Part shown: piece by piece, positions 1,919 to 16,726 of the stretch | How positions within the stretch are numbered: the stretch's first letter is position 1 | Layout of the letters: the number at the start of each line of letters is the position of its first letter | Source of the DNA: a virus | Virus record (IMG/VR): IMGVR_UViG_3300024346_000617 | Span: 1-21,146 of that record | Direction: 5' to 3' (one strand) | DNA length: 21,146 nucleotides | Position numbers and translations under genes: made by a program | Notes under the pieces: generated by a model | Told to the model about the DNA's origin: nothing | The model's database searches: none | The model's input: only the letters and a program-made list of their open reading frames with translations

Positions 1919-2034
1919 TTTTTGTCTTCTTCTTTTTTGTCTTCGGATTTCTCCTTTTCTAGCTTGATGATATATATATCAAGCTTGGCTAGCCATTCTT
2001 TTTTAATCTTGTAATCTCCCCTCTTCTTCTTCAT
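1915..2034 (-). CDS. Small Lys/Glu-rich hypothetical protein (39 aa)
   Basis: A short frame of 39 codons from the ATG at 2034 to a TGA that overlaps the next ATG (ATGA). The product is highly charged: MKKKRGDYKIKKEWLAKL at the start, then a Lys/Glu/Asp-rich helical tail. I do not recognise a family. Support comes from tight packing between two genes, the ATGA coupling and the lack of any other explanation for the gap. Against it, the start codon overlaps the conserved GTCTTAAA element; if that element is a promoter -10, transcripts starting there would miss this ATG and the ORF would need read-through from upstream. Confidence 0.5.
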   Translation of the reverse strand: MKKKRGDYKIKKEWLAKLDIYIIKLEKEKSEDKKEEDKK

Positions 2035-2059
2035 TTAAGACCGATAATTCTTTTTTGTT
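2034..2059 (-). promoter_or_regulatory. Conserved AACAAAA/GTCTTAAA element, copy a (fibre unit)
   Basis: On the minus strand AACAAAA begins at 2059 and GTCTTAAA occupies 2041-2034, with 18 nt from AAC to GTC. It lies just after the stop of the connector gene and before the fibre genes. The spacing matches an ECF-type -35/-10 pair. The final A of GTCTTAAA is the A of the ATG of the 39-codon ORF. Confidence 0.6.
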
Positions 2060-2060
2060 T

Positions 2061-2579
2061 TTAGCATCTTCTAACCCTAGGCAAGACCCATCCACCAACA
2101 TTTACTATGCGGTCGCTGGTTTTTATTGTCATGCTATATTCTGGTATAGAAGGGCCATTTACTCTAATCCATTCTCTATAATCTCTTTCGTAGTCTCTAT
2201 AAAGCCCACGTGATGCCTGTGCTAAAAAGTCGACCTCTTCTTTTGATATAGAATCCGCATCTGGTGTTTTTGATTTTGTGATGCCGTTGTTTGACACAAG
2301 GTAAGCCCCAGAACGCAAGAATATATCAGCTGAGCCATGAATAAGCATTGGCTTAATATAGTCGTTGTATAGCTCTAGATAGAGACCAGTGAAGCCTGCT
2401 GAACCATTTCCAGCTAAGTAGTCGTTGGTCATCTTAGTATATAGAGGTATGCCAAGCAGCTTTCTAATCATTGTCTCCTGACATGCTTTTACAGCCGGCA
2501 ATAATCTGTCTATATCGACATTCCCACCAATGATTGTGTTTTTTGTGATGTCGTTCGTTTGTAATAGTATAATAGCCAT
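2061..2579 (-). CDS. Head-tail connector-like protein
   Basis: A 172-residue protein directly downstream of the portal gene (10-nt gap). It resembles a conserved Bacteroidota phage family, possibly the one named DUF6712, that typically sits beside portal and capsid genes. The recalled signature includes an N-terminal 'inDitkNTiigGNVDidrllpav', then a 'qeTmIrklLGipLYtkm' helix, and an aromatic, charged helix (residues about 124-140, RGLYRDYERDYREW). The fold is probably mostly helical, as in head-tail adaptors. The end differs from what I remember of the family: residues 150-172 add a beta-like tail finishing GGWVLPRVRRC. A role at the portal-tail joint is inferred from position and size; family membership is from memory. 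Confidence 0.6.
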   Translation of the reverse strand: MAIILLQTNDITKNTIIGGNVDIDRLLPAVKACQETMIRKLLGIPLYTKMTNDYLAGNGSAGFTGLYLELYNDYIKPMLIHGSADIFLRSGAYLVSNNGITKSKTPDADSISKEEVDFLAQASRGLYRDYERDYREWIRVNGPSIPEYSMTIKTSDRIVNVGGWVLPRVRRC

Positions 2580-2589
2580 AGTTTTTTAT

Positions 2590-4026
2590 TTATTTTAATG
2601 AACCCCCTCGTGAGTATCTAACGCCGTCTAAAAGTTGGCTGACGGCCGCTCCAACGCTTGGTGTTTTTCCTACGAACCAAGAACCCCACCTATTCGCGCC
2701 TTGTGTTCGGCATATTCCTGCGCCGTTTAGTATTGCCTGAAATAAAGAAAAGTTTATGTCATAGTATGTGTATATATCGCCTGAGTTAAATTGTATCGTC
2801 ATATCTCTTGTTTCATCTTCGTATAGTATCTTCTTTACATTAGAACTTTCCGGTGTTGAACGCCATTTTTTTAGTTCTACCTCGCCAACGAGTTCGTCGA
2901 ACTCTTCTTTTGACATTGCTACTGGTGCCACTACTGGCTCGACCACTGGCACGACCGGTTCTTCTTTAACAACGAGTTCCTCGAAATCCTTAAAGTATAG
3001 TTCTGGGGTAGTTCCACCATAGGCGAGTATATTTTCTAGTCCATCAATAAATATCTCCCTAAAAGGCTTGATTTGGCTTCTGTATAAGGTCTTTAAGGCA
3101 ACTGTCATTTCGTCTGCGTTGTTTCCTAATCCGCCTCCATCTTTTATCCCAAATAGAATAGGATTTACAACTTTATGCGCCATTAAAATCTTGTCTCTCG
3201 CCTCAGTGGATAGCCATTCGTATTGGTTATATGCGTCTGCTATCACAATCTGCTCCACTGTTGTCGCATTTTCTTTATTATCATTTACTGATATAATGAC
3301 CGTTCCTGCATTTGTTGTGCCAGTAGTTTTGGCTAATATGCTTCTTTCAGCTTCTTCTTGTTCTTCTGGTGTATCAAAGCCTTGGTTTATATTTACTATC
3401 GTTCCGGCTGAAAACTTGTTCTTTACGTGGCAATTGTAGAAGTTTGATAACTCTTCTTCTAGGTCGCAATATTGTAGTGCTGACTGATAGTCTGGTAGTG
3501 AATATATAGGCTCACAAGAAGGGGTTCTTACAAAAGCAATCTCAGTTTCTTTGCCAGATGTGGTTCCGAAAGCAGGAACAAGGGCAGGTCTGTATTTTGT
3601 TTGGTATCTCCAATCAAAACTGTACCAGAAGTTTTCTATGGGGTCTGTGATGTCTAATGGTCTATCTACTGCTATTTGCTTTACTGGAATATGGTATAGT
3701 TTTGCTATGTTTTTTCTATCTTTTGTATAAACAACCTGCAAAGTATATTGCCCATGCATCTTTAAGTCTTTTATTGCGAGCCTAACATCGTTTTTTGATA
3801 TAATGCTGTTTATGTCTATATTGGCTTGTAACCCTTCTCCATAGATATACGAGCAATAAGCATCGATAACTGCGTTGTTTGTCGGAGAACCGATATATCT
3901 TTCTTCTACATACTGATAGTAGGAGTTGTTTTGACCATGTGTTAAATATTTCCCGGTGTTTGTAAGGACTATTCTTTCGTCTGGCCTAACATAGTTGTTT
4001 AGTTCAAATGCTTGTATTTTTTTCAT
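2590..4026 (-). CDS. Portal protein with C-terminal KTSC-like domain
   Basis: The probable dodecameric portal through which DNA enters and leaves the head. Residues 30-350 show the pattern of portals in Bacteroidota phages: an N-terminal YYQYVEERYIGSPTNNAVIDAY segment, a central beta-rich part, and a helical segment with ARDKILMAHKVVNPILFGI (277-294) and GLGNNADEM (299-307), followed by SQIKPFREIFIDGLENIL (317-334). A Pro/Val-rich linker (residues 351-371, repeated PVV and PVVEP) joins a C-terminal part. There, residues about 393-467 (ILYEDETRDMTIQFNSGDIYTYYD...) resemble a KTSC domain, a small beta fold found in phage and bacterial proteins. The leader is A/T-rich (aaacaaataaaATG) with no Shine-Dalgarno. 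The portal lies downstream of the capsid gene, the reverse of the common order. Confidence 0.8.
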   Translation of the reverse strand: MKKIQAFELNNYVRPDERIVLTNTGKYLTHGQNNSYYQYVEERYIGSPTNNAVIDAYCSYIYGEGLQANIDINSIISKNDVRLAIKDLKMHGQYTLQVVYTKDRKNIAKLYHIPVKQIAVDRPLDITDPIENFWYSFDWRYQTKYRPALVPAFGTTSGKETEIAFVRTPSCEPIYSLPDYQSALQYCDLEEELSNFYNCHVKNKFSAGTIVNINQGFDTPEEQEEAERSILAKTTGTTNAGTVIISVNDNKENATTVEQIVIADAYNQYEWLSTEARDKILMAHKVVNPILFGIKDGGGLGNNADEMTVALKTLYRSQIKPFREIFIDGLENILAYGGTTPELYFKDFEELVVKEEPVVPVVEPVVAPVAMSKEEFDELVGEVELKKWRSTPESSNVKKILYEDETRDMTIQFNSGDIYTYYDINFSLFQAILNGAGICRTQGANRWGSWFVGKTPSVGAAVSQLLDGVRYSRGGSLK

Positions 4027-4035
4027 TTTATTTGT

Positions 4036-4440
4036 TTATATTTGTATAACGCTGTTCGTCATTGTAAGCAATCTGTAGTTTTGTAAGTCATTGCTTGTAG
4101 TTACATATGCCTTTGTTCTATATATAATAGTTTCATCTGTCTTTCTGACCGTAACCTCGTAGTTTTCTCCGTCATTAAACCCGAAGTTGCTATAATATAT
4201 TCTCATTTTACCGTTGAATATGGTTGTTGGTGTTGATGTCCGAGTGGTTACCTGAGTAAGCTCATTCCAGAAGTCCATATAAGCCTCTGCTGGATATTCA
4301 GATGGGATTATTTCCATAAAAAGCGAGCTTGTTCCACCAGTAGTCATATCGACTGTGATGTGCGTGTTGTCTACCGATATAATCGTTGTGTCGACTGTGA
4401 AAGATAGAAAGCCTATATCATCTACATTGATAATTTTCAT
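4036..4440 (-). CDS. Small beta-rich hypothetical virion protein
   Basis: A 134-residue protein that I do not recognise by name. It is rich in Thr, Val, Ile and aromatic residues with almost no charged helix, suggesting a beta-sandwich. The pattern FMEIIPSEYPAEAYMDFWNEL followed by beta strands and NYRLLTMTNSVIQI is compatible with a minor virion protein. It is the first gene after the terminator and structured region at 4441-4680 and carries a conserved GTCTTAAA element 17 nt before its ATG, so it probably opens a transcription unit with the portal (gap 9 nt) and connector. It could be a head decoration, connector or tail protein. Confidence that it is a gene is high; its function is unknown. 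Confidence 0.65.
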   Translation of the reverse strand: MKIINVDDIGFLSFTVDTTIISVDNTHITVDMTTGGTSSLFMEIIPSEYPAEAYMDFWNELTQVTTRTSTPTTIFNGKMRIYYSNFGFNDGENYEVTVRKTDETIIYRTKAYVTTSNDLQNYRLLTMTNSVIQI

Positions 4441-4457
4441 TGCTTTTGTTTATTTAT

Positions 4458-4484
4458 TTTAAGACAGAAGTTTATGTTTTTGTT
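4458..4484 (-). promoter_or_regulatory. Conserved AACAAAA/GTCTTAAA element, copy b (portal unit)
   Basis: AACAAAA begins at 4484 and GTCTTAAA covers 4465-4458 on the minus strand (19 nt from AAC to GTC, one more than in the other copies). It follows the terminator at 4615-4649 and the inverted repeat at 4496-4608, and sits 17 nt before the ATG at 4440, separated by an A/T-rich leader (ataaataaacaaaagca). A new transcription start after a terminator makes promoter function especially plausible here. Confidence 0.65.
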
Positions 4485-4495
4485 TTTAATATATC

Positions 4496-4608
4496 AAAAC
4501 GCGAAGAGCTAGGGCTCACGCTACGAGTGCGTATGTGTATATAATATATACTATATCATTATATTGTCCCTCGCTTTTGAGCAGTAGCCAGCCCTAGCGT
4601 GGCGTTTT
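4496..4608. other. Nested inverted repeats in non-coding DNA
   Basis: An imperfect long inverted repeat: AAAACGC (4496-4502) pairs with GCGTTTT (4602-4608), and GCTAGGGCT (4508-4516) pairs with AGCCCTAGC (4590-4598). Near its centre is a 15-nt palindrome, GTATATAATATATAC (4537-4551). No ORF of note crosses it. It could be a protein-binding or replication site, a structured RNA made on the minus strand, or an extended terminator structure. Confidence 0.6.
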
Positions 4609-4614
4609 AAATAA

Positions 4615-4649
4615 GAAACCCCCATCTAAAAAAAGTAGATAGGGGTTTC
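4615..4649 (-). terminator. Rho-independent-like terminator after the tail-tube gene
   Basis: GAAACCCC and ATCTA pair with TAGAT and GGGGTTTC around a 7-nt loop, with a single C/A mismatch: about 13 bp of stem. It lies 31 nt past the stop of 4681-5217. On the minus strand it is followed by TTATTTA, a short and imperfect U-tract. It would end the protease-capsid-tube message before the portal unit begins. Confidence 0.75.
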
Positions 4650-4680
4650 ATCTGTTGCTCCGCCAGGAGCTATATAGAGA

Positions 4681-5217
4681 TTAAATAGTCGCCGGAGAAA
4701 CCAATGCGTTTAATGCAGTTACTGCCGCAGGCTCTAAGTAGTAGATAGGCTCTGGTTCAGTTCCAACCGCAGTCAGAGTGTATCCGTTTAATGAGTCTAA
4801 TGTTCCACCTACTCCGTTCGCCGAGCTAACCTCGCAACCGTGGTTTTTTCCTAAAAGAACTACTTGTCCAGTGTTAAGTTCTACAAAGACCAAAGGCCGC
4901 CCATATATCATCATTTTCACTTGGTATTCTTTAAGCTTGTCGATTTTCGTCAAGATAAAAGTAAGAGTTTGAGTATACAGAGTCGTTCCGTTGTCTCTTG
5001 AAGAGGCGCTAGTCTGAGCTAAAGTATTCCCTGAGTTTTTAAGCTCATATTTATATACGACCGATAAGCTTCCTAATCCGCTAATAATATGTCCAGCATC
5101 TGTTGAAGACGCAGTCATTCCGTAGTTTTCGTAGTTTGCTAAATATACAGCCCTGTATCCGGACACTGCGTTCTTGCATTCAAGCTCGAGCATTCCTTTT
5201 GTAATATCACATGCCAT
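4681..5217 (-). CDS. Putative major tail tube protein
   Basis: A 178-residue protein immediately after the capsid gene. Its pattern (MACDITKGMLELECKNAVSG, then YLANYENYG, then SSRDNGTTLYTQTLTFIL, then IYGRPLVFVE and a GYTLTAVGTE end) matches an abundant Bacteroidota phage structural family that I recall as a tail-tube-like protein. The all-beta composition with a glycine-rich C-terminal part fits a tube subunit. Codon use resembles that of the capsid gene (Ile mostly ATT/ATC), which suggests high expression. A hairpin precedes it at 5244-5265 and a terminator follows at 4615-4649, so it is the last gene of the capsid unit. The tube role is from memory and position; a head decoration protein is the main alternative. 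Confidence 0.6.
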   Translation of the reverse strand: MACDITKGMLELECKNAVSGYRAVYLANYENYGMTASSTDAGHIISGLGSLSVVYKYELKNSGNTLAQTSASSRDNGTTLYTQTLTFILTKIDKLKEYQVKMMIYGRPLVFVELNTGQVVLLGKNHGCEVSSANGVGGTLDSLNGYTLTAVGTEPEPIYYLEPAAVTALNALVSPATI

Positions 5218-5243
5218 GTTTTATTTATTTATTTTTATATAAA

Positions 5244-5265
5244 GCGCCTAACTTTCGCCAGGCGC
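5244..5265 (-). terminator. Hairpin between capsid and tail-tube genes
   Basis: GCGCCT (5244-5249) pairs with AGGCGC (5260-5265) around a 10-nt loop. On the minus strand it begins 11 nt after the capsid stop and is followed by TTTATATAAAAA, only weakly U-rich. It could be a partial terminator or a 3'-end stabilising hairpin that sets the capsid-to-tube ratio. Full termination is unlikely unless another promoter serves the tube gene, and none is visible. Confidence 0.5.
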
Positions 5266-5276
5266 ATTATTTTTTA

Positions 5277-6173
5277 TTATGCTAAGTAAGCTACGATTTC
5301 TGGTCCGTAAGTATATCCTACTCCACCAGTGAAAACTACTTTTGTTCTGATGTTACCATCTAATCTGTCTTGGTCATCAGAAAGAAGAACTTCATTCGTA
5401 TCTGATTGCAAGCCTGTTAAGAAACCAATGTTTCTAACTCTATATACCAAGATAGTCTTAGCAGGTAGAGATGCTACGCTTTGTAGTGGCCATCCTGCAT
5501 ATGCTGGTTCTAGTTTGTCAGCCCCAGTGTTGAATCCTTGTCCAGAAAGCGCTTGTGAAGCATATCTTGCTACGTCGTTTGAAACAACCCATACAAGGTC
5601 AGATTCTCCTTCGATTTCAGGAAGAACACTTGCATATACTCTATCAAGCTCAGCATAGATGTTCGCTTTTGATAAAGAAGCAGAAGCAGTCAATAAGACA
5701 ACTCCAGAAGAAGCAGTAGCGAACTGTCTTAAAAGACCGTCGAATTGGTTTGTAGTTCCATTTCCGTTCCAGATTTGGTAATCTACTTTTGCCGCCATGT
5801 TGTCTACGATAGCTCCAAGAATAGCTGTTTGGAAGTCAGCAGGAATATCGTTGTTTGCTGCGAACAATCCTTGAACTTGTGCTTGGAAAGTTGCGTAGAA
5901 CTTGTCTTTACAAAGTTCGTGTTGGATTTGGTATTTTTTTACAATAACCTCTTTTTCAGTATATGCTACTGTTCCAGTTGGGTCCCATCCACAAGCATAA
6001 GCAGATATATCGCCAGTGTAAGCGATTTTTGGAAGAAAACCTGAACCAATCACGTTTGGAATAACAGTGATAAGCCCTTTGTTAATAGTGTCTGCTTTCT
6101 TGAAAGCCGCCACAAAAATCTCGCCAGCAAGTGTACCAGCGTAATTCGTAGTTACATTTAATGTTGTAGCCAT
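5277..6173 (-). CDS. Major capsid protein
   Basis: A 298-residue protein that forms the icosahedral shell. It fits the pattern of HK97-fold capsid proteins of Bacteroidota phages: N-terminal MATTLNVTTNYAGTLAGEIF, a long helical segment (about 100-140), GLLRQFATA (146-154), a conserved 'DLVWVVSNDVARYASQAL' strand-helix, and a C-terminal 'GFLTGLQSDTNEVLLSD...VVFTGGVGYTYGPEIVAYLA'. It follows the protease-scaffold gene by 10 nt, the usual pairing. There is no cleavable N-terminal delta domain within it, so scaffolding is probably supplied by the protease fusion. By hand count about 1 of 19 Ile codons is ATA, far lower than in neighbouring genes, consistent with strong expression. The A-rich leader has no Shine-Dalgarno. 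Confidence 0.85.
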   Translation of the reverse strand: MATTLNVTTNYAGTLAGEIFVAAFKKADTINKGLITVIPNVIGSGFLPKIAYTGDISAYACGWDPTGTVAYTEKEVIVKKYQIQHELCKDKFYATFQAQVQGLFAANNDIPADFQTAILGAIVDNMAAKVDYQIWNGNGTTNQFDGLLRQFATASSGVVLLTASASLSKANIYAELDRVYASVLPEIEGESDLVWVVSNDVARYASQALSGQGFNTGADKLEPAYAGWPLQSVASLPAKTILVYRVRNIGFLTGLQSDTNEVLLSDDQDRLDGNIRTKVVFTGGVGYTYGPEIVAYLA

Positions 6174-6183
6174 GTTTTTTAAA

Positions 6184-7368
6184 TTATTTTTTGTTTTTGT
6201 TTTCGGCCACTATTCTAGAAAGTCTCTCCATAGTGGTTTCTTTTGAGTTTGTCTTAGTCTCGTTTGCTCCAAGCTTTACAGCAGCAGGTTGTTTGCTTAG
6301 CTCTTCTACTTGTGCTTGTAGAGCGACATTCTGATTTAAGACATCTTGTAGTTGTTTTGTAATATTTTCGATAAGCGCGTTGTAGTCGATAGACTCTGCA
6401 GGCATGCCTTCTTCTACTGACTCTATAATGTTTTCCATAATAGATTCAACAGCCTCTGATGCAATCTCTTCTTCGATAGCCGAGGCATTTACTGGAGTTT
6501 CTGCTACAGTTTCTTCTGCTAATATTTCTTCTGTTGCTTCTGCTTCTACTGGTGCTTCCGCTACTGGTTCAGCAGAGATGATAACTCCCATATCGTCAGT
6601 TTTTACGACTTTGCCTTCAACCACTATTTCTGCGTTCGCATATGACATAGGTCCATTGCCGTCATTTTTGTCTAGGGTTAATGTTTCTCCAACAGAATAT
6701 GTTTCTGAGAATAAAGTCCCCTCTGGAATTTCAACGCTTCCAAGATTTACGTCGGCTGTAAGCTTACCTACAATCCTGCTTAGCTCTTTTAATAGATTCA
6801 TTTGTTCTTTATTTTTTTTTGTGATATTCATTTCTATTTTTCTAGTGCTTAATATACTATCAATAGAAAAGCCTTTGACTTTCTTGGATTTTATTAAATC
6901 CCAAGTGTCGTTATTTTCTACATAGGCGCTTGCCATCCAGGTTCCTGCTGGAAGGTCTTTAAACCCCAATGCGTTTGCTTTGTCATTTTTGCCATCTTCT
7001 ATAATCCAAGATTCAACAAAAGTTAAATCCTGTATAGCAGCGTTTTCGTCGTGGCCTACTGTGGAATTATGCTGATAGTCATTTTTCATAAAATCTTGGC
7101 TGAACATCCTGATTTCATTTTCGCCGAACACAAGGTTGAACTCCTCATTTGTCTGCTTGTTGAACCTTAAAATCTTTTTGTTCGGAATAAGTACTGGCCC
7201 AGTGATGAGCCTTTTTTCCCCTTCGACTGCTAGCTTTACCTCTTCTTGTTCTTTTGATAGAGCAACAAAGAATTCCTCCATAGCCGGGTCTTCTACTAGT
7301 GAGATAGCATATACACCATCGCTTTGTTGTGGGTTATATACCACTTTGTATAGGTCTAGGTTTTCCAT
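6184..7368 (-). CDS. XkdF-like prohead protease with scaffold domain
   Basis: A 394-residue protein in two parts. Residues about 1-180 resemble the XkdF-like prohead serine protease: DGVYAISLVEDPAMEEFFVAL near the start, a LITGPVLIPNK strand, then HNSTVGHDE (100-108), VESWIIED (118-125) and VKGFSIDS (164-171). H100 or H106 and S168 are the likely catalytic residues. Residues about 265-325 are very acidic and Ala/Glu/Val-rich, residues 330-360 form a coiled coil (ITKQLQDVLNQNVALQAQVEEL), and the end is basic (RLSRIVAENKNKK), which together look like an internal scaffold ending in a capsid-binding tail. The protein should assemble inside the prohead and then be degraded. The conserved GTCTTAAA element lies 3 nt before its ATG. 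Protease-scaffold fusion is known in other phages; the catalytic assignment is inferred. Confidence 0.75.
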   Translation of the reverse strand: MENLDLYKVVYNPQQSDGVYAISLVEDPAMEEFFVALSKEQEEVKLAVEGEKRLITGPVLIPNKKILRFNKQTNEEFNLVFGENEIRMFSQDFMKNDYQHNSTVGHDENAAIQDLTFVESWIIEDGKNDKANALGFKDLPAGTWMASAYVENNDTWDLIKSKKVKGFSIDSILSTRKIEMNITKKNKEQMNLLKELSRIVGKLTADVNLGSVEIPEGTLFSETYSVGETLTLDKNDGNGPMSYANAEIVVEGKVVKTDDMGVIISAEPVAEAPVEAEATEEILAEETVAETPVNASAIEEEIASEAVESIMENIIESVEEGMPAESIDYNALIENITKQLQDVLNQNVALQAQVEELSKQPAAVKLGANETKTNSKETTMERLSRIVAENKNKK

Positions 7369-7371
7369 ATA

Positions 7372-7397
7372 TTTAAGACATGATTTTTTATTTTGTT
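7372..7397 (-). promoter_or_regulatory. Conserved AACAAAA/GTCTTAAA element, copy c (capsid unit)
   Basis: AACAAAA begins at 7397 and GTCTTAAA covers 7379-7372 (18 nt from AAC to GTC), placed between the tape-measure stop and the protease ATG, which lies 3 nt downstream. If this is a -10 element, the message would be leaderless or nearly so. It would drive protease, capsid and tube genes up to the terminator at 4615-4649. Confidence 0.6.
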
Positions 7398-7403
7398 ATA
7401 TTT

Positions 7404-9749
7404 TTACAAAAAGGTTGCATTATTTGTTATATTCCTGTCAAGCGCTTGTTGAGTAGTCATATCAGTTCCAACAACATATGCTTTTACTGGTTGCTGCTGT
7501 TGAGCTGCGATAGTCGCCGCTAACTGGTTTGTAGTAGAGCTCCCCACTATATTAAATGATGCCTGCGGAGCATTGGCAGTTCCAGATGAAGAGTTGTTAC
7601 CAGATGAGCCACCTGTAAGTTTTTGTGCCAAGATAGTCGCGATAGATAGACCCGCTCTGGCTACGGCCGCTGCGGTAAGCAACCCTTTTGAGACAACCCC
7701 CGTATCAGGAAGAGCAGTAAGAGATGGATTCGCCCATATTCCTCTTATCTCTTCTTGCCCAGTGATAACAACATTCGCGACCCCAATGACTTTTCTAAGC
7801 GCTAGGGCGTCTTCGGCTGCTTTCTTTCCTTTAAGATGGCCATTTGTTATTAAAGCGTCTACGAAATTTTGGCTTTCGCTTGCAATGCCCATGACAGCGT
7901 TTTTATATTGCTGTTCTCTGTCAAGAGCTTCGTCCCTCATAAGCTTTCTTTTATCCCATGTGGTCGCTTCTATTTCAAGCTCTTTGTCAGAAGTCGTTGT
8001 AGCGATTTCTATCATAAGGTCGCTAGTGTTTTGTGCTATGGCTACAGAGTTTTCAGAAATCTGTACATCTACGTCAATAGCTTTCGCTAGCTTATCCCTA
8101 AGCATTTGGTCTTGAGTCTGTCCAGATAGCTTTCGCTCGTTGTCTAGCTCCTTAAGCCTTTCTTTTTCGGCATCTGTAAGCTTTATTTCTCCATCTATTT
8201 TAGCAGCAAGAATCGATGCGTCAGACATAAGTTGCTTTGAGTCGGCTACAAGCATATCTTGCTTTTCTTGTAGAACCTCGCGCTCGGCAAGCTTTGTCTT
8301 CTCTATTACCTCTATTCTATTTTCATAGCTCTTGTTTATCCTTCTTTGTATTTCGTCAAACTTGTTAGAGTTGTCTAGTCGTCCATCCACGGACTTTTCA
8401 TACTGGAAAAGCTTGTTGTTAAGCTCATATTCTTCTAGCTTTAATTTATTTATTTCATCATACTGTTCTATAATCTTTTCATTCCCGATTATCACTGCAG
8501 CCTGTTCTGTAAATATAATGTCGTTCTTTTTTTCAGCTAGGTCTTTTGCTATCTGCGCTTTTTCGCGGTATGCATCCGAATCCTTAAATAAGTCCTTTAG
8601 CTGTTTTTTAAGCTCATTGTATTCTTTATCCGAATAGGCGCCCGAAGCCACCATTTCTCTCTGTCTTTTAGCAGCCTCTTCTATTTTTTGAGTAACTTTA
8701 TCGTTGGCTTCTATCAAATCATCTGCGAGCTTGTTTAGCTTTGTCATATCGGCAAAAACTTTGCCATATTTCGAGTTGTCAATCTCTGTAAGAGCCTTCC
8801 CGCTTGCGTTTATTATATCATAGTATTTTTTAATAAATGCTATGCTTTCTGTAAGGTATTTCTTTTCGTTTGCTAAAGCTTCTTCTCTTAGCCTTTTTTC
8901 TTCGGCGAACTTAGCAACGCTGCTGCTGGTTTCGGTCTTGTCTCGGTCTATCTTTGCTTGCGAAACCAAATCTTGTGTAGCGCTTAGCTTCTTTACGATT
9001 TCATTTTCATTATCATATATAGTAAGCCTGGCGCTGGCGTTTTTAAGGTCGTCTCGCGCTTCTTGTCTAGCTTCTTGTGTAGAAGCGTTTAGCCTTATGG
9101 TCGCGATTACGACCTCGTTTAGTATTTTGTTTCTTTCGCTATCTGTATCAACAGCTTGTTTCAATAAAGCCACCTCGCTTTCTAGTTGTGGAATAGAAAG
9201 GTCATAGTATGCTTTTTTGGCGTCGTTTATTTCAAGAGTCTTTTTAAGTATCAAATCTTGCGAGGCTCCTTGTGCTTGCAATATAGCCAGTTCGTTTTCT
9301 AAAGAAGCTACTGTTGCGTCTAGCGAAACTTTTGTAGATTTCTGAATCTGGTCGAAGCTTATTAAAGAAGCATTAAAATTTTCTAAAAGCTTGGCCGAGC
9401 CAGACAAAATCCCATTCCACTTTTCCCAGTTGGTTACAAGCTCTAGCAAAACAATAGCCAATGCTCCAATCCCTGTCGCTATAAGCGCACCTCTAAGACC
9501 CTTTAATGATAGTCCTGTTCCCTCTATGGCTTCTATAGCATCCTTAAAATCCATTGCGAGTCCGCCAGTAGCCGCGCCAAGAAGGCCCATTGCTCCGCCA
9601 TTTTCTAAAAGTCCTTTCTTATTATGGTCTAATGATTTTGTATTGTTTTCAGTCGCCTTCGTAACCTTTTCTACGCCTTGCGCTGTTTTGTCAAGGTTTT
9701 GAGTATCTACTACTACATCGATTTCTATAGTCTTGTTTATATCGGCCAT
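7404..9749 (-). CDS. Tail tape measure protein
   Basis: A 781-residue protein with the typical tape-measure layout. The N-terminus (IEIDVVVDTQNLDKTAQGVEKVTKATE) leads into a Gly/Ala-rich hydrophobic stretch (51-64) and a membrane-like segment (86-106, RGALIATGIGALAIVLLEL). A very long charged helical region (about 130-600) with heptad-like spacing follows, then a Gly/Ser/Asn-rich C-terminal part ending in VVGTDMTTQQALDRNITNNATFL. Tape measures set tail length; at the usual ~1.5 A per residue this would give a tail of about 115 nm. Its ATG overlaps the stop of the 41-codon ORF as TAATG. The usual chaperone neighbour is not directly upstream; the probable chaperone lies some 7 kb away beside the terminase. 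Confidence 0.85.
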   Translation of the reverse strand: MADINKTIEIDVVVDTQNLDKTAQGVEKVTKATENNTKSLDHNKKGLLENGGAMGLLGAATGGLAMDFKDAIEAIEGTGLSLKGLRGALIATGIGALAIVLLELVTNWEKWNGILSGSAKLLENFNASLISFDQIQKSTKVSLDATVASLENELAILQAQGASQDLILKKTLEINDAKKAYYDLSIPQLESEVALLKQAVDTDSERNKILNEVVIATIRLNASTQEARQEARDDLKNASARLTIYDNENEIVKKLSATQDLVSQAKIDRDKTETSSSVAKFAEEKRLREEALANEKKYLTESIAFIKKYYDIINASGKALTEIDNSKYGKVFADMTKLNKLADDLIEANDKVTQKIEEAAKRQREMVASGAYSDKEYNELKKQLKDLFKDSDAYREKAQIAKDLAEKKNDIIFTEQAAVIIGNEKIIEQYDEINKLKLEEYELNNKLFQYEKSVDGRLDNSNKFDEIQRRINKSYENRIEVIEKTKLAEREVLQEKQDMLVADSKQLMSDASILAAKIDGEIKLTDAEKERLKELDNERKLSGQTQDQMLRDKLAKAIDVDVQISENSVAIAQNTSDLMIEIATTTSDKELEIEATTWDKRKLMRDEALDREQQYKNAVMGIASESQNFVDALITNGHLKGKKAAEDALALRKVIGVANVVITGQEEIRGIWANPSLTALPDTGVVSKGLLTAAAVARAGLSIATILAQKLTGGSSGNNSSSGTANAPQASFNIVGSSTTNQLAATIAAQQQQPVKAYVVGTDMTTQQALDRNITNNATFL

Positions 9750-9874
9750 TATTTAAGTATTTTTTTTATCCACTCCATAAAAGTGCTTGGCATTTCATAT
9801 TTGCCCATTGCTATGTCTATAAAATCGGTGCCAGACCAGTTTCCTAAAAAAAGGATTTCCATTATATCTCTCAT
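9749..9874 (-). CDS. 41-residue protein coupled to the tape measure
   Basis: A short frame, ATG at 9874 and TAA at 9751-9749, whose stop overlaps the tape-measure start (TAATG). The product begins MRDIMEILFLGNWSGTDFID and ends in a basic helix (WIKKILK). No family is recognised with confidence. A real gene is supported by its exact fit in the gap, by stop-start coupling and by the GTCTTAAA element 3 nt upstream. It could be a translational leader for the tape measure or a small assembly factor. An internal ATG at codon 5 is an alternative start. Confidence 0.6.
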   Translation of the reverse strand: MRDIMEILFLGNWSGTDFIDIAMGKYEMPSTFMEWIKKILK

Positions 9875-9877
9875 ATG

Positions 9878-9903
9878 TTTAAGACCAGCTTTTATGTTTT
9901 GTT
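9878..9903 (-). promoter_or_regulatory. Conserved AACAAAA/GTCTTAAA element, copy d (tape-measure unit)
   Basis: AACAAAA begins at 9903, inside the TAA stop of the upstream gene, and GTCTTAAA covers 9885-9878 (18 nt from AAC to GTC). The ATG of the 41-codon ORF is 3 nt downstream, as in copy c. It would serve the 41-residue ORF and the tape measure. Confidence 0.6.
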
Positions 9904-12397
9904 AAGCCGGCTCATTAAGGCCTCTTTGTATAAGCTCTACGGCATGTCCTGTAACATATCCTTCTCCTTGCCATATATTTATAGTCATGACACGGTCTTC
10001 ATATACCTCTGGTATGCCTTGTGTGGCCTTTTCTAAAACTCTAATGACTATTTCGGTTGAGCCCGTGCCTGATGGTGTCAAGACCTCTACCCAGTCTGTT
10101 CCATTTCCTTCGTCTGATAGAGAAACATGCCAGTACCCATCCGTATTTATCGGTATGCCGTAGTATTTTGTTCCAGCATTTGCATCTATCGATGTGGTTA
10201 TAGCGAAAGGCTGTGGTGCAACATAAGAGAATATATCATTAAATAAAGTGAATTTAGTCTGTCCAGTGCTGACATCTACCGTGAAGTCGTTTATTTTAAA
10301 TCTATTGTTACCTATTATTATCCTATCATTTAATGAAAGTTCTTGTATATATCTTGCTGGAAGAGCCGCCGCGATATATGTGAATTTTCTCTGCTTTAAT
10401 GAGTATATCGTTTCTACCCAGTTTCTCCAATAGTTTAAGTATAGCGAGTTATCTACTTGCAGAAGATGCCAAGGGTCTATTTCGGCTCCGAAGTTTATAG
10501 CATCCGTAACTTGATATAATAAAGCATCGTTCGTGTTTCCTACAATATATGGAAAGGAGACTGTCGTATATATGTTTTGGTATTTTACTTTGAACGGAAA
10601 ATCAGAGGAGACTGCTATTCCATTGTTAAAAAATAAAATAGGTTTCGACACTCTTCTAGATATAGTGGTTCCATCGTCAGATAAGGTGGCTGACTGGCCT
10701 ATAACTATATTTGTTGTTGTGTCAATAAGTGTTGGGTCAGTAAGATATGGTGCTTGAACATCTAGTCGCTCAAAAAGCATATTCTCAAATGGAAGTTCTA
10801 CTTTAAGTTCGTCTAGGTTTTCTACTGTAGCATATGTGCTTCTAAGGTCGCCATATGCATAGCCTCTTGATGCTTCATTTAATCTATTAAACTCGGCAGC
10901 TGCTATATTTTCTGTCTTTTGATATAAAAACCGAAGAGTCCTGTATATCAGTGGTCTTTCAATAAGAACATTTGAGTGGTTGACATAGTTTGATATGTTG
11001 AGTATGCTTCCTCTGCTATAATAGCCATCTAAGGTATCTACGTAGAACTGTGTCTCCGATATAGGCCTGACAATAAGCTTAAACATTTTCATTATGCCTT
11101 GAAAAAAGTCTAAAACTTTCATTTTTGGAATATTATCTTCTATTTTTACCGAGACTGTTAAGGTAGATAGGTTGCTTGATGAAGATAAATCTACATATAC
11201 GTAAGTTTCACTGGCATATTTTCCTTGATAATAGACCTCACATCTTGTAACGACGTCCATTGTAACTGTCGGAATCAATATAAGTTTAACATTATCGATA
11301 GTATATTCACATGGATTTCCATCTAAAGTGCTAAAGTTAAACGATATATAGTTTGCTCCTGATATAGCAGTGTAAGTTTTTACCGTATTTCCGTCTTGGT
11401 CGACTATCAATGCGTCATATTCCGCGGTCGGATTTGATGGATTTACATACCACCTTATATATCCGCTGAATATAACTGCTGCGATGTTGCTATATCTTCT
11501 TCTATTTATAGACATAACATTTCCGCTTCTAAAAAATATAGGAAAAGGATGTGGGCATGGTGGAACTGGGTCATCTGCCTCTATGTGTATTCCCTCAAAA
11601 GGCTGATATATATCTGGCTCAAACTGTGCTCCTAATATATTGTCTGTTTTTGCATTCATCCACATAAAAAGGTTGTTAAACACAGCCTTTCCGAAAAAGT
11701 CCCGTGTGAAAGATATACCATACTTTGCTTCTATACCTTCCAGTATATTCGCTATTCTAATGGCGGGCCTTAGCTCTGTTTCTAATATGGAGCCACTGGA
11801 TTCTGGTCCACCTGATATATCTGTTGAGTCGTTTGTTCCATAGTTCCAGTCCCTGTTGGCATATGCAATAAGTGGAGTTATTATGTTTCCATCCTTAAAT
11901 GATGGGTTGTTTAAGGTCTTCTCAAAATTTTCAAGCGTATAGTCATAGTCAAACTGTGAAAGAGATGTTAAAGTCTTTGTTTCGTTTCCGAATATATCTT
12001 TTGTATAGTCTAGCCTATCTATCGTATCTTCTCCGAAAACATCCGATAGTTGTCTTAATGAGCCGAAGAAAGTTATCTTGTATGTTGAGGGCATATGGTC
12101 TATAAGAACCACATTTTCAAGTTGAACTCGTCCAGTCCTAAACGGAAGAGTATCTACCTCGATATATGCCGAAACCCGTATGTTTGCGTTGAAGCCATTG
12201 TCTATACTGTAATCATAATAGTGCTCAAATATGGCATTGTTGTTCGGGGTCGCAGGAATAGTAAACGAGTTGCTATAGTCGTTGAACACGCTTGATAACT
12301 TTTCTATGTCTGATAGTTTTGACGTAACTTGTATCGTTTCGTCGTCGAACATATCGAGTAATCTATAATCTTCTCCTATATATATCTTTGTCTTCAT
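9902..12397 (-). CDS. Large tail-tip protein with C-terminal BACON-like domain
   Basis: An 831-residue structural protein. The start (IYIGEDYRLLDMFDDETIQVTSKLSDIEKLSSVFNDYSNSFTIPATPNNNAIFEHYY) matches a pattern I recall from tail proteins of Bacteroidota siphoviruses. The body is beta-rich with aromatic residues, including VLDFFQGIMKMFKLIVRPISETQFYVDTLDGYY, as in distal-tail or baseplate hub proteins. Residues about 732-826 (YYGIPINTDGYWHVSLSDE...WVEVLTPSGTGSTEIVIRV...RVMTINIWQ...VELIQRG) look like a BACON domain: a W near the start, a PSGTGS turn, an R-initiated strand and a final Q. BACON domains are suspected carbohydrate or mucin binders and occur in crAss-like phage tails. Its ATG overlaps the stop of the upstream tail gene (TAATG). 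Tail-tip placement is inferred from family pattern and position. Confidence 0.65.
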   Translation of the reverse strand: MKTKIYIGEDYRLLDMFDDETIQVTSKLSDIEKLSSVFNDYSNSFTIPATPNNNAIFEHYYDYSIDNGFNANIRVSAYIEVDTLPFRTGRVQLENVVLIDHMPSTYKITFFGSLRQLSDVFGEDTIDRLDYTKDIFGNETKTLTSLSQFDYDYTLENFEKTLNNPSFKDGNIITPLIAYANRDWNYGTNDSTDISGGPESSGSILETELRPAIRIANILEGIEAKYGISFTRDFFGKAVFNNLFMWMNAKTDNILGAQFEPDIYQPFEGIHIEADDPVPPCPHPFPIFFRSGNVMSINRRRYSNIAAVIFSGYIRWYVNPSNPTAEYDALIVDQDGNTVKTYTAISGANYISFNFSTLDGNPCEYTIDNVKLILIPTVTMDVVTRCEVYYQGKYASETYVYVDLSSSSNLSTLTVSVKIEDNIPKMKVLDFFQGIMKMFKLIVRPISETQFYVDTLDGYYSRGSILNISNYVNHSNVLIERPLIYRTLRFLYQKTENIAAAEFNRLNEASRGYAYGDLRSTYATVENLDELKVELPFENMLFERLDVQAPYLTDPTLIDTTTNIVIGQSATLSDDGTTISRRVSKPILFFNNGIAVSSDFPFKVKYQNIYTTVSFPYIVGNTNDALLYQVTDAINFGAEIDPWHLLQVDNSLYLNYWRNWVETIYSLKQRKFTYIAAALPARYIQELSLNDRIIIGNNRFKINDFTVDVSTGQTKFTLFNDIFSYVAPQPFAITTSIDANAGTKYYGIPINTDGYWHVSLSDEGNGTDWVEVLTPSGTGSTEIVIRVLEKATQGIPEVYEDRVMTINIWQGEGYVTGHAVELIQRGLNEPA

Positions 12398-15300
12398 TAT
12401 CTTATGTTCTTTATTTCATTATGGCTTAGCCTAACTTTAATCGTATATTGTATATTCTTGTCGTTCAAGTTCGTTTTGTATGCCAATGACTGGTCCATTC
12501 TTATTGCTGGGTATGCATAGTCTGTTCTTACTAGTTCGCCGAAAGAAAAGTATCCACTCGACCTAATCCATATCTCTTCACTTAGCATGGCTTCTTTTAT
12601 GCTTTCGTTCATATATTCTGGAATAAAAGGTGTGTTTAATGTCCATTCTTCATAACCAGTTACGTTAAGCTGCTTTTTGGTGTGTCTATTTATGTCATAA
12701 TCGCCATTCATATCTACAATGCTTCTAAGATAATCGTCTCCTGATATATTAAGCTGCTTTGTCGTCTTCTTACTCATAGAGATGCTTTCTAAGACACCCC
12801 ATTTGTTCTTGAATATAAGTTCATAGTTATCGTATCTACATTCGTCATATGCCTCGTATGTGATTATCTCTTCTAGTTCGTCCATATATACTATTCCGAA
12901 AATGACTTGGTTATTCGCACCTAGATATGTCGCCACATCGATTGAATTATAATATTGGTCGTTTTGCGACACGAAGACATTTGGTTCTATAACGATATAA
13001 AACCCATCAGATATGGCATACATAACGGCAACATCTCTGTTTCTATAATATAGTCGTGGAGCCGAGCCTCTTGCGATAATGTTTGTATGTGGAGTCAGTA
13101 TTCGTGGAAAGTTGTTTATGCTCTCTGGTGTTCCGTTAAGTTCTAATGGAGTTACGAATCCATCCATAACATGATATAGGCTCATTGGATTTGATGCCGT
13201 TGCTGTTCCATTATAGTTTTGTGCGCGAACTCTAACCCATCTGCTTTCATTTTCTCCAAGCTGCATGACAGGTGTATCCGATAAGAATCCAGTGATGTCT
13301 GCCTCCAAGTCTTCTTTGACTATATTCGCCAAGTCTATATAAAGTGCTGTTTGGCTTGGAACCATTTTTTGTTTTGTAATCGAATAGCTTAGTGGTGCGA
13401 TGTCTTCTATGTTTCCAATAAAAGAATATATATCAAACACTGTGCTTGACTGCGTTCCTATCGATTTCTGCAATATAGGGCTTCGCGTAAGCGCTAGCCT
13501 TGCGTTTGCTAGGAGTTCGTCTAAGTCAAAGAGTTCTATCTCTCCTAATAGCTGAACTATATCTATAAAAGATATTATCCTTGGAACTATAGGCGGAACA
13601 AAAGGCCCACCATCATCTAATGCAAGATTTATAGTCGAGCCATAAAAAGATGTGTCAAAAGAATAGTATCCATATTTTAAGTTTACATAATAGAAGTTTA
13701 CTACTTGCCATTCAAGGTTAAACTTTTTATATGTGTTCCAATATGTGTGAGCGAGCGCTGAACGCCACTCTATTGCGTCCGTTACGTTTGGAATAATGGC
13801 AGGCTCCTCAAAGTCTGGTATAGCTATAAGCCAGTTTTCCCATAAAGGGTTGTTAAGTTCAAGCGTAACCACATTTTCAACTATTGTGATGTTGTAATAA
13901 AAATCTCGTATGCCTGGCTTTCCTGTGGTGCCAAGTTCTCTCGTGGCTGCTATAAGATTTGGATAGACAACCGTGTCCATCCATTCTTCTAAAAACACCG
14001 CCAAATTTTGCTTCATGTTTATATCTAGCTTTACCGTGCCTGGGTCGCCGTCTTCTGTGAACTGAATAAGCAGTCCATCATAATAGAAAAAGTTTGTATC
14101 TGGGTTGTATAAGTTTCCAATAGCGAGAGATATGCTTCCTTGTGCTGCGGCTGGGTATAATGGGTCAAACTCAAAGGAGACTGATGTTTTATTTATTTTA
14201 TATTCGCCGATTTCTATATTTCTATTTATATGCCATTTATCTACTGCTGGGTATATGCTATCGTCTAAATAGTAGTTTGTTGTCGTGTTCATGCCTCTGG
14301 CGGTCTGGAACCTTCCTAATGCGAGACAATGTGTTGTGTATTGGTCGCTAACTGCCCCACCCGGTCTTAGTCTAGAAGATATAACCCTATATATTATAGA
14401 GCCGTCTAAAAATCGTATAGTATCAAAGTTTTGTGAATCAAAAGGCGTATTTTGATTTATCACAAAGGGTGCGTCGAACTCGTTGAACCACTCAAACGAT
14501 ATTATATTCTCTGCTCTATATGGCCCGAACTTCTTAAAGTTTCCACCTAAGACTACAAAGGTGCCACCCCTTCCATATGGTGTGCCAGGGTTTTCAATGA
14601 TTTGTATATCGTATATTCCGCCCTCGACATAGTTTGGACTTGATATACCAGTTCCTATACGGCTCATAAAATAATCATTTACAAGACCAGTCGCTGCATC
14701 TACTGCTGTGATGCCTAGTCCGGCCATTCCATATGTAGTTTCTAAAGGGTCGGCGAACGACATGACTGCGTTTGCGTCAGTTGCTATAAGCATAAATGGA
14801 TATAGACTACCGCCTTGAAGGCATATTGCTTTACAATCCGAACCGCCCGTGAATGCTAAAAGCTCTTCCCACACTCCAAACTGGTTTAGTTTGGCTACAA
14901 GCCTTGATGTGTTTGTGTTACATGTCTCGAAGTTTCCGCCGATATATACGTCGGCTGTGCCAGGGTCTTTTGTAATGGCTCTAATATATACTCTACCATA
15001 ACCAGTGCTATTCGTGCATGATGTGATAGTCCATGTTGCATCTAATGTTCCATCCGTCTCAAACCTAGCCACTCTTCCACCACCAGTACTGTTCGTATAA
15101 CCAACATATATTCTTCCAGTATCAGGCTCGACTGTAATTTTAGTTACGATAGTGGTCGAATTGAATAATCCAGTCGCCGCAACATTCGCCCTAAAAGCCA
15201 TATCTAATGTTCCGTCGCCATTTATTTTCGCGAACTGTTTTATAGAAGTTCCGTTCCATAGTGTCTGTTCGCCACCGATATAGAAAGAACCACCGTCGCC

Positions 15301-15753
15301 TGGTGCGAACCTGACCGCATATATTATGCTCGCCACTGTTGTCGCGTAAGACGTAAGCAATGAACCATTTCGTGAGTTTATTCTTGCTATATTTACAGAA
15401 GAAATGTCGTTGTATAGGTCAAAAAATCCTACAATCATAGTGCTATCCCCATCTGAGTCAGCGTCGTATATATCTCCGGCTGCCCCAACAGCTCTTCTAG
15501 CTCCTAATAAGTCTGTCCCCATTGGGTCGGGGTTGAAAGCCGAAAGAAGAGTTAAGTCATTGTTAAGTCCAATAACTCCATTTACTGTTCTTGATATAGG
15601 GGCTCTATATGTGAAGCTTGGGTCTGTTAAAAGTCCTACCTGCTCAAACTCATATAGGCCATATGTTGCTGCGTCATCTGCTATCTTGAATGCGATTTGG
15701 TCGCCTTCTTCTGGTTGCGAATAAAACTTCATCGTGAGTTTTCTTTCTGCCAT
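12397..15753 (-). CDS. Very large tail protein with delta-60-like propeller repeats
   Basis: An 1118-residue protein, the largest in the window. Residues about 85-440 contain repeats resembling the delta-60 (DUF5122-type) beta-propeller blade: a VYIGGNF or IYVGYT strand, a short loop, then a VARFETDGTLD strand. Copies with 'aRiNsrnGsL', 'akiNGDGTLDmaF', 'ARFETDGTLDATW' and 'aKLNqfGvweellaF' lie near residues 120, 172, 226 and 283, with VLGGNF near 402. Residues 440-1118 are beta-rich with helical segments and hold a fibronectin-like stretch (ESRWVRVRAQNYNGTATASNPMSLYHV). Propellers in tail proteins commonly mediate carbohydrate binding or act as spike scaffolds. The gene starts 1 nt after the neck-protein stop and is coupled to the next gene by TAATG. 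A tail-tip or host-binding role is inferred; the size and repeat type are seen directly. Confidence 0.65.
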   Translation of the reverse strand: MAERKLTMKFYSQPEEGDQIAFKIADDAATYGLYEFEQVGLLTDPSFTYRAPISRTVNGVIGLNNDLTLLSAFNPDPMGTDLLGARRAVGAAGDIYDADSDGDSTMIVGFFDLYNDISSVNIARINSRNGSLLTSYATTVASIIYAVRFAPGDGGSFYIGGEQTLWNGTSIKQFAKINGDGTLDMAFRANVAATGLFNSTTIVTKITVEPDTGRIYVGYTNSTGGGRVARFETDGTLDATWTITSCTNSTGYGRVYIRAITKDPGTADVYIGGNFETCNTNTSRLVAKLNQFGVWEELLAFTGGSDCKAICLQGGSLYPFMLIATDANAVMSFADPLETTYGMAGLGITAVDAATGLVNDYFMSRIGTGISSPNYVEGGIYDIQIIENPGTPYGRGGTFVVLGGNFKKFGPYRAENIISFEWFNEFDAPFVINQNTPFDSQNFDTIRFLDGSIIYRVISSRLRPGGAVSDQYTTHCLALGRFQTARGMNTTTNYYLDDSIYPAVDKWHINRNIEIGEYKINKTSVSFEFDPLYPAAAQGSISLAIGNLYNPDTNFFYYDGLLIQFTEDGDPGTVKLDINMKQNLAVFLEEWMDTVVYPNLIAATRELGTTGKPGIRDFYYNITIVENVVTLELNNPLWENWLIAIPDFEEPAIIPNVTDAIEWRSALAHTYWNTYKKFNLEWQVVNFYYVNLKYGYYSFDTSFYGSTINLALDDGGPFVPPIVPRIISFIDIVQLLGEIELFDLDELLANARLALTRSPILQKSIGTQSSTVFDIYSFIGNIEDIAPLSYSITKQKMVPSQTALYIDLANIVKEDLEADITGFLSDTPVMQLGENESRWVRVRAQNYNGTATASNPMSLYHVMDGFVTPLELNGTPESINNFPRILTPHTNIIARGSAPRLYYRNRDVAVMYAISDGFYIVIEPNVFVSQNDQYYNSIDVATYLGANNQVIFGIVYMDELEEIITYEAYDECRYDNYELIFKNKWGVLESISMSKKTTKQLNISGDDYLRSIVDMNGDYDINRHTKKQLNVTGYEEWTLNTPFIPEYMNESIKEAMLSEEIWIRSSGYFSFGELVRTDYAYPAIRMDQSLAYKTNLNDKNIQYTIKVRLSHNEIKNIR

Positions 15754-15754
15754 C

Positions 15755-16237
15755 TTATTTGTTTATTTTTTTATCTTCTAGGCTGACATAAAAGTCAGTC
15801 CATATGCTTTCTGCGATATCGGTCGCCATTTTGTCTAATGTTCCATCGCTGAAAGACCTTTCTATAAATGGATTTCTCCTTATACCTTTTGTATATATCG
15901 AATATCTTAATGCCCATGGATTTATGCCCTTTGCGTTTGCCCATGCTTGGAGCGCCGATATTGGCGGCATCTTATCTTTATATCTGAACCGGCTGTTTTT
16001 ATTTTCAATATAAGATGACTTTGCACCATTTACTCCTTCATTTATATATGTTCCATGCTCAGCCATATATATACCAACATTCGCGGTTCCGTTTTGGTCG
16101 AACTCTATCTCGCCAGTTATCGAGTCTCTTAATGAGCCAGAAAAAGAAGGTGCTTGTTCTTTAAGCGTCGCTTCTATAAGGCTCGCATAGTCTTGTAGAG
16201 TCTTATAGTAGTTTTTTTGTTGGTCTTTTAACTGCAT
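15755..16237 (-). CDS. HK97 gp10-like neck / tail-completion protein
   Basis: A 160-residue protein that resembles the HK97 gp10 family of head-tail joining or tail-completion proteins: helix 1 (YYKTLQDYASLIEATLKEQAPSFSGSLRDSI), a beta hairpin (EIEFDQNGTANVGIYMAEHGTYINEGVNG), a loop, then LQAWANAKGIN and the IRRNPFIERSFSD segment. The APSFSGSLRDSI and YINEGVNG motifs are the most telling. It overlaps the upstream gene by 10 nt, so the two are translated together, as expected for two completion proteins acting at the head-tail interface. The next gene begins 1 nt after its stop. Confidence 0.75.
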   Translation of the reverse strand: MQLKDQQKNYYKTLQDYASLIEATLKEQAPSFSGSLRDSITGEIEFDQNGTANVGIYMAEHGTYINEGVNGAKSSYIENKNSRFRYKDKMPPISALQAWANAKGINPWALRYSIYTKGIRRNPFIERSFSDGTLDKMATDIAESIWTDFYVSLEDKKINK

Positions 16238-16683
16238 GGGCTGATGATGTCATTTTGTGTAGCGACTGTAATCTGAACAACCCATCCATCAAGAAGATTT
16301 GTATGTTTCAGTATAAGAGGAGTTGCAGTTCCTACGCTTAAAAGTGTGATGGCCGTTCTAGTGTTGTTTAGCCTAGTTATTAAAAAGTTAAGTGCATAGT
16401 CGCATAAATTTAAGTTGTCTATCTCATTATCGTTGCCAGCAAACTTGTCTTCCTCCTGAAATTTTGATATGTTCCTTTGGTCAAGGACTGCTATCTCAAA
16501 AGTATATGTGTTTTGTTGGCTGTTTCCGAACGCTCTCGATATAGGGTTTATATGTGCTATCGGTGGAATAGACTTTTTATATGTGTCCAACTCGCCAGTT
16601 CCGCCATGTATAATGGTGTGGATTTCCGTGCATTCCGAAAGTATCCCGTGAATCGTGTTAATGCAAGTATAATAATCGTTCAT
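16228..16683 (-). CDS. Tail terminator-like protein
   Basis: A 151-residue protein with an alpha/beta pattern like tail terminators: N-terminal helix (YYTCINTIHGILSE), a strand-turn-strand with IPPIAHINPISRAF, the beta strand TYTFEIAVLDQRN, helix DYALNFLITRLNN, and a C-terminal DGWVVQITVATQND strand. I recall this pattern in Bacteroidota phage structural clusters, and its position beside a gp10-like gene fits. Tail terminators cap the tube and connect it to the neck. Its ATG is preceded by the GTCTTAAA element with a 17-nt A/T-rich leader, so it probably opens the long tail unit that runs to 9902. Confidence 0.6.
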   Translation of the reverse strand: MNDYYTCINTIHGILSECTEIHTIIHGGTGELDTYKKSIPPIAHINPISRAFGNSQQNTYTFEIAVLDQRNISKFQEEDKFAGNDNEIDNLNLCDYALNFLITRLNNTRTAITLLSVGTATPLILKHTNLLDGWVVQITVATQNDIISPCS

Positions 16684-16700
16684 TTGATATGTTTATTTAG

Positions 16701-16726
16701 TTTAAGACAGATAAATCTTTTTTGTT
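16701..16726 (-). promoter_or_regulatory. Conserved AACAAAA/GTCTTAAA element, copy e (tail unit)
   Basis: AACAAAA begins at 16726, inside the TAA stop of the -1-frame chaperone extension, and GTCTTAAA covers 16708-16701 (18 nt from AAC to GTC). The ATG of the terminator-like gene lies 17 nt downstream after an A/T-rich leader, the same distance as in copy b. Confidence 0.65.

Follow-up and report, generated by a model that had tools for sequence, protein, structure and literature searches.

A set of repeated two-box elements in a tailed-phage genome fragment probably acts as late promoters of the extracytoplasmic function (ECF) type, read by the host core RNA polymerase together with an ECF-like sigma factor that the phage itself encodes; we put the probability of this reading at about 0.83. 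The window analysed here is the entire IMG/VR record IMGVR_UViG_3300024346_000617 (21,146 bases), a phage fragment; the rest of the genome, including the early genes, lies outside the record. It contains five copies of the element AACAAAA-N11/12-GTCTTAAA, named E1 to E5, each of which opens one structural-gene unit, and a gene for a 166-amino-acid (aa) sigma-like protein (19417-19917, minus strand). A first-pass annotation had proposed an ECF-like late-promoter system, and this proposal is now backed by footprint conservation, by the ECF profile and fold of the protein, by gene order and sites in the cultured phage P12024L, by hundreds of further relatives, and by co-variation of the -10 box with the sigma factor. 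The most striking feature, absent from that annotation, is a fixed distance of 12 nucleotides (nt) between the -10 box and the start codon.

The pattern AACAAAA-N11/12-GTCTTAAA matches the window exactly five times, on the minus strand only, and not once in 100 dinucleotide shuffles. The five elements first annotated were all recovered where they had been placed, with both boxes exact: E1 at 2034-2059, E2 at 4458-4484, E3 at 7372-7397, E4 at 9878-9903 and E5 at 16701-16726. The AAC-to-GTC distance is likewise as claimed, 18 nt in four copies and 19 nt in E2. GTCTTAAA alone occurs eight times in the window (1.0 expected), and a search with up to three mismatches at spacing 18 gives nine matches (1.9 expected), the additional in-gene matches being degenerate. 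The earlier statement that all copies lie between genes needs rewording, as they are found not in open intergenic space but at gene borders, abutting or overlapping coding ends. E4 overlaps the stop codon of an 831-aa gene by 2 nt, E5 overlaps the stop of the preceding small gene, and E1 begins 1 nt past a stop codon, its last base being the A of the ATG that opens a 39-aa open reading frame (ORF). The elements do differ from the Bacteroidota housekeeping promoter, as had been said: the TAnnTTTG -7 element occurs 25 times in the window against 22 by chance, with three copies on the transcribed strand and none at the five elements. Sigma-70-like matches in the window were also tried as promoters and rejected (41 found, 43 expected). 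An exact-pattern scan of IMG/VR gave, among the matches listed, single matches only and no other contig with several copies.

Capsid and terminase sequences were used to find close relatives, among them L139 and L140 (capsid 96-97% identical) and L006 (terminase about 90%). The element is present at matching places in all three. When E1-E4 are compared with L139 and E5 with L006, 75 of 75 box bases are identical, whereas identity falls to 37 of 56 positions in the spacers and to 103 of 150 in the 30 nt preceding the elements. E2 has its 19-nt spacing in L139 and L140 as well, and the counterpart of E5 (L006:3905) has a diverged spacer. In addition, a degenerate sixth site, TACAAAA-N12-GTCTTAAA, lies within the protease gene 5' of the capsid gene (6335-6361, minus strand) and is perfect in the relatives (L139:3550, L140:2045). 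It is possibly an internal capsid promoter.

The 19417-19917 product is, by profile and predicted fold, an ECF-type sigma factor, which bears out its first description as sigma-like. Its likely start codon, judged from L006 and L007, is at 19890. Taken alone, the protein gives a weak match, to the PHROG family "RNA polymerase sigma factor" (1e-7). Ten of 38 relatives match Pfam Sigma70_r2 at E<0.01 (best 4.9e-7), and a profile built from the 38 relatives matches ECF sigmas, SigW and SigH among them, along both domains (8e-9; SigW 17-155). In the AlphaFold model (predicted local distance difference test, pLDDT, 73), a helical sigma2 domain (~14-77) and a helix-turn-helix sigma4 domain (~99-165) are joined by a disordered linker. 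Only these two domains are present, with no sigma1.1 or sigma3, which is the layout of ECF (group 4) sigmas. The top fold matches in the PDB are Mycobacterium tuberculosis SigL and SigE and Bartonella RpoE, several ECF matches being in initiation complexes, and sigma4 alone reaches a target-normalised template modelling (TM) score of 0.8 against Escherichia coli sigmaE region 4 on -35 DNA. A tblastn search with three of the sigmas against GenBank phages gave no matches because the family diverges too fast, and synteny and profiles were therefore used. A distinct sigma subfamily was seen in the L191-L222 group, where 12 members match phrog_31712 (function unknown) and are paired with a very constant TTCTATTATATA box; phrog_31712 is a candidate for re-annotation as a sigma factor.

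Proteins related to those of the window, in a similar order, are encoded by the cultured Nonlabens (Persicivirga) phage P12024L (large terminase, TerL, 53%). Its gp35, annotated "Sigma-70 region 2", lies directly 5' of the terminase gene. Seven AACAA-N14/15-CGTTA sites are found where its gene units begin, all 5' of late genes (gp1, gp5, gp8, gp37, gp42, gp45 and gp46), and the distance from the C of CGTT to the A of the ATG is 12 nt in six of them and 11 nt in one. Counted on both strands, the pattern occurs 8 times against 0.2 expected from shuffles. A mismatch-tolerant search restricted to one spacing hardly exceeded chance, since the sites come at two spacings; the variable-spacing search is the decisive one. 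Terminator-like sequences stand 5' of the gp5 and gp8 units. Host-type TAnnTTTG boxes stand 5' of several early genes (gp16, gp25), and a few also 5' of late genes; such promoters probably drive the P12024L early genes. P12024L and P12024S therefore resemble the window in their related proteins, in a sigma gene 5' of TerL and in the same class of element 5' of late genes, but their -10 box is CGTTAATA instead of GTCTTAAA. P12024L (L135) also has three annotated minus-strand ORFs, gp4, gp7 and gp44, in the gaps 5' of predicted late promoters. They may be either genuine antisense genes or spurious calls.

About 230 IMG/VR relatives were considered overall. A scan with the P12024L terminase gave 80 contigs, and the distance rule was then retried on 148 contigs unused in defining it; genes were called mechanically, from the first ATG and with a minimum of 60 aa, so that the counts carry some noise. 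In the terminase set, the sigma gene lies 5' of the terminase gene in most contigs with enough upstream sequence. A clade-specific box stands exactly 12 nt before late-gene ATGs: CGTTAATA, CGTTTATA, TGTTTATA, AGTTATATA or CTATTATATA, with GTCTTAAA in the window. At offset 12, the first set has 30 late genes, against about 4 at other offsets, and 6 early genes; three of the latter are in fact late genes of P12024L, placed 5' of the sigma gene only through the cut of the record. The new contigs gave 43 late genes against about 6 at other offsets, and 13 early genes, which is background. Of 80 contigs reaching at least 2.5 kb 5' of the terminase gene, 69 had a detected sigma gene. The enrichment 5' of late genes that the first-pass annotation had named as a check of its proposal was found in the relatives for the -10 box, at offset 12, with early genes weak or at background. 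No offset-12 peak was seen in RAP44, BS-TP2 and Harreka, where no sigma homologue was found, or in two contigs from distant metagenome-assembled genomes (MAGs).

Relatives found in genome assemblies are mostly in Bacteroidota bins. Two phage contigs of this Bacteroidota-type group, L224 (Euryarchaeota MAG) and L228 (Pseudooceanicola MAG), are in archaeal and alphaproteobacterial bins, and their placement is likely a binning error. The terminase of OQ791282.1, "Shigella phage Henu10", matches Riemerella phages, with the coordinates and score of vB_RanS_PT15, and its stated Shigella host looks doubtful.

Sigma region 2 reads -10 boxes and region 4 reads -35 boxes. The sample is small, with 26 non-redundant sigma/box pairs, and its sites and sigmas share descent. 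In it, boxes differ more the further apart their sigmas are (r 0.67), and the partial correlation after removing terminase distance is 0.44 (p 2e-4). Terminase distance itself has no residual correlation with box distance. Without the large CTATTATATA clade, region 2 of the sigma shows a partial correlation with the box of 0.31 (p 0.001), against 0.10 (p 0.17) for region 4. This co-variation of the -10 box with region 2, beyond shared ancestry, supports recognition of the box by the phage sigma, short of proving it.

The predicted promoters of the window, all on the minus strand, differ in their distance to the start codon. In E3 and E4 the GTC lies 11 nt 5' of the ATG of the protease gene (7368) and of a 41-aa ORF (9874), respectively, giving near-leaderless layouts. 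E2 has its GTC 25 nt 5' of the ATG at 4440, with a short A-rich leader, and a leader of ~12-14 nt is expected between E5 and the ATG at 16683. The GTC of E1 is only 7 nt from the ATG of the 39-aa ORF (9 nt in L139), so the true start codon there is uncertain. In L141 and L142, which have a different -10 sequence, both the leaderless protease layout and the leadered layout of a 134-137-aa gene recur. A constant distance from -10 box to ATG has no obvious reason in leadered transcripts; with transcription starting 10-13 nt past the -10 core, the commonest promoter arrangement would most likely produce leaderless or nearly leaderless mRNAs.

From the sequences, we infer transcription initiation at the elements, their reading by the phage sigma, late expression and start points near the AUG; the expression class of the window genes was deduced from gene content. 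The sigma gene, directly 5' of the terminase gene, would be expressed early, from promoters of the host type, as suggested by P12024L. The sigma would then switch the core polymerase to the AAC/-10 elements of five separate structural-gene units, with AAC(AAAA) as the -35 box and GTC(TTAAA) as the -10 box. Where the -10 box is 12 nt from the start codon (E3, E4 and most sites in relatives), transcripts would start at this codon or within about 2 nt of it. More broadly, the comparisons lean towards a large group of Bacteroidota phages, most of them uncultured, with a fast-diverging ECF-like late sigma, promoters locked to the start codon and largely leaderless late mRNAs in mostly leadered hosts, in which changes of region 2 and of the -10 box may be a natural re-tuning of specificity.

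Several observations weigh against late promoters read by a phage ECF sigma. Taken alone, the window protein scores 13 bits with Pfam Sigma70_r2, below the cut-off of 24, although the Sigma70_r2/r4 cut-offs are detection thresholds and not biological features. The predicted TM score (pTM) of its AlphaFold model is low (0.40), probably because two domains are flexibly joined. The 15 nt between AAC and GTC in the window are two fewer than in P12024L. In the new contigs, AAC is exactly placed at 15 of the 43 offset-12 sites, so the -35 box varies too, and an offset-12 site is present in 32 of 56 sigma-bearing contigs, many of the examined stretches being short. Finally, with the short leaders of E2 and E5 and the awkward nearness of E1 to its ATG, the 12-nt rule is not universal.

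Four other explanations were weighed. The elements may be promoters read by a host ECF sigma, the phage protein having another role; ECF sigmas are numerous in Bacteroidota, and an AAC/GTC pair is common to ECF promoters in general. This is nevertheless quite unlikely, as the -10 box varies by phage clade and tracks region 2 of the phage sigma rather than the terminase, the position of the sigma gene is conserved in nearly every relative with enough flank, and relatives without the sigma lack the signal. It is even less likely that the sigma-like protein is an activator aiding the host housekeeping sigma, as proposed for RinA/ArpU-type proteins of Firmicutes phages. Such a role would fit the genomic place, directly 5' of the terminase, and nine family members do also match phrog_36 "transcriptional regulator", but the protein has both sigma2 and sigma4, no TAnnTTTG box accompanies the elements, and two boxes at ECF-like spacing fit direct recognition.

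A translation-start signal, rather than a promoter, would also account for the constant spacing between block and ATG in relatives. We consider this very improbable: the box spacing is kept even 25 nt from the ATG, in E2 and E5, the AAC box is ~30 nt 5' of the ATG, the block is found at unit-opening genes, and both layouts are repeated in L141/L142 with another -10 sequence. Packaging, recombination or RNA processing sites would, like the elements, be repeated and placed at gene borders. Their constant strand, their position at unit starts, the pairing of two short boxes around a free spacer and the shift of the box sequence by clade along with the sigma make this the least probable account. 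ECF-type promoters read by the phage sigma remain the preferred explanation.

The window has tailed-phage genes (terminase, protease, major head protein, portal and fibre), and all features below are on the minus strand. The E5 unit (9902-16683) comprises two small genes, the second with a weak likeness to tail completion/Neck1, and genes for 1118-aa and 831-aa proteins. Downstream of E4, a conserved 41-aa ORF (9749-9874) comes first, and its stop overlaps the ATG of the gene for a 781-aa protein, which makes up the unit (7404-9749). The E3 unit (4681-7368) encodes the head maturation protease, the major head protein and a 178-aa protein. An A-rich stretch (AACAAAAACAAAAAATAATTTAAAAAAC, 6174-6201) adjoins the ATG of the major head protein without a GTC box and is probably a strong Bacteroidota translation leader. 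An intrinsic terminator (4615-4649) with a 14-bp stem and a T-rich tail separates the capsid and portal units 5' of E2, in agreement with the annotation of a terminator there. The E2 unit (2061-4440) encodes a 134-aa protein, the portal and a 172-aa protein. The E1 unit (3-1918) encodes a 113-aa protein and the tail fibre; the conserved 39-aa ORF (1915-2034), the first gene past E1, overlaps the ATG at 1918. Both short ORFs are kept in L139. The large terminase gene (17474-18718) lies 3' of the sigma gene and 5' of E5. Among the earlier unit labels, capsid (protease and major head protein), portal and fibre hold; the tape-measure label is tentative.

Few phages are known to encode a late sigma factor. 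Our searches of the open-access literature turned up no late sigma/promoter pair for Bacteroidota phages (subscription papers and preprints were mostly outside the search), no account of a fixed promoter-to-ATG distance and no description of P12024L/P12024S promoters. The first-pass annotation had suggested that this could be an undescribed phage late-promoter system; such a system is supported, but it is common to many relatives and not peculiar to this phage. A predicted sigma/promoter pair is now available in the cultured phage P12024L. The many natural sigma/-10 variants offer material for how ECF region 2 reads DNA, as well as candidate orthogonal promoters for Bacteroidota genetics. Bacteroidota is a phylum without Shine-Dalgarno signals, and the late phage genes provide a direct test case for leaderless translation in it. 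In Flavobacterium johnsoniae, 87% of predicted leaders are longer than 10 nt (PMC6847099), and leaderless phage mRNAs would therefore stand out as unusual.

Among known systems, Bacillus subtilis SigW and E. coli sigmaE share with the phage system the sigma2-sigma4 layout, an AAC-type -35 box and a CGTT/GTC-type -10 box. The spacing of SigW promoters equals the AAC-N17-GT spacing of P12024L, whereas that of the window (AAC-N15-GTC) is shorter; here, moreover, the genes are viral and no anti-sigma gene was identified. The Bacteroidota housekeeping promoter (TTTG/TAnnTTTG; PMC6847099) is absent from the late elements. The closest phage parallels are phiEco32 gp36 and gp47 of Salmonella phage 7-11, which are the phages' own sigma factors serving one-box or two-box late promoters (PMC8948821). 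As in the system proposed here, a phage-encoded alternative sigma works with the host core polymerase, early genes depend on the host sigma, and two-box promoters stand 5' of late genes (GTAAtg-16-aCTA in 7-11; PMC8948821). These are enterobacterial phages with another promoter sequence, and we found no fixed promoter-to-ATG distance reported for them (PMC8948821). The sigma described here, by comparison, was found by ECF profiles and is encoded 5' of the terminase gene in Bacteroidota phages.

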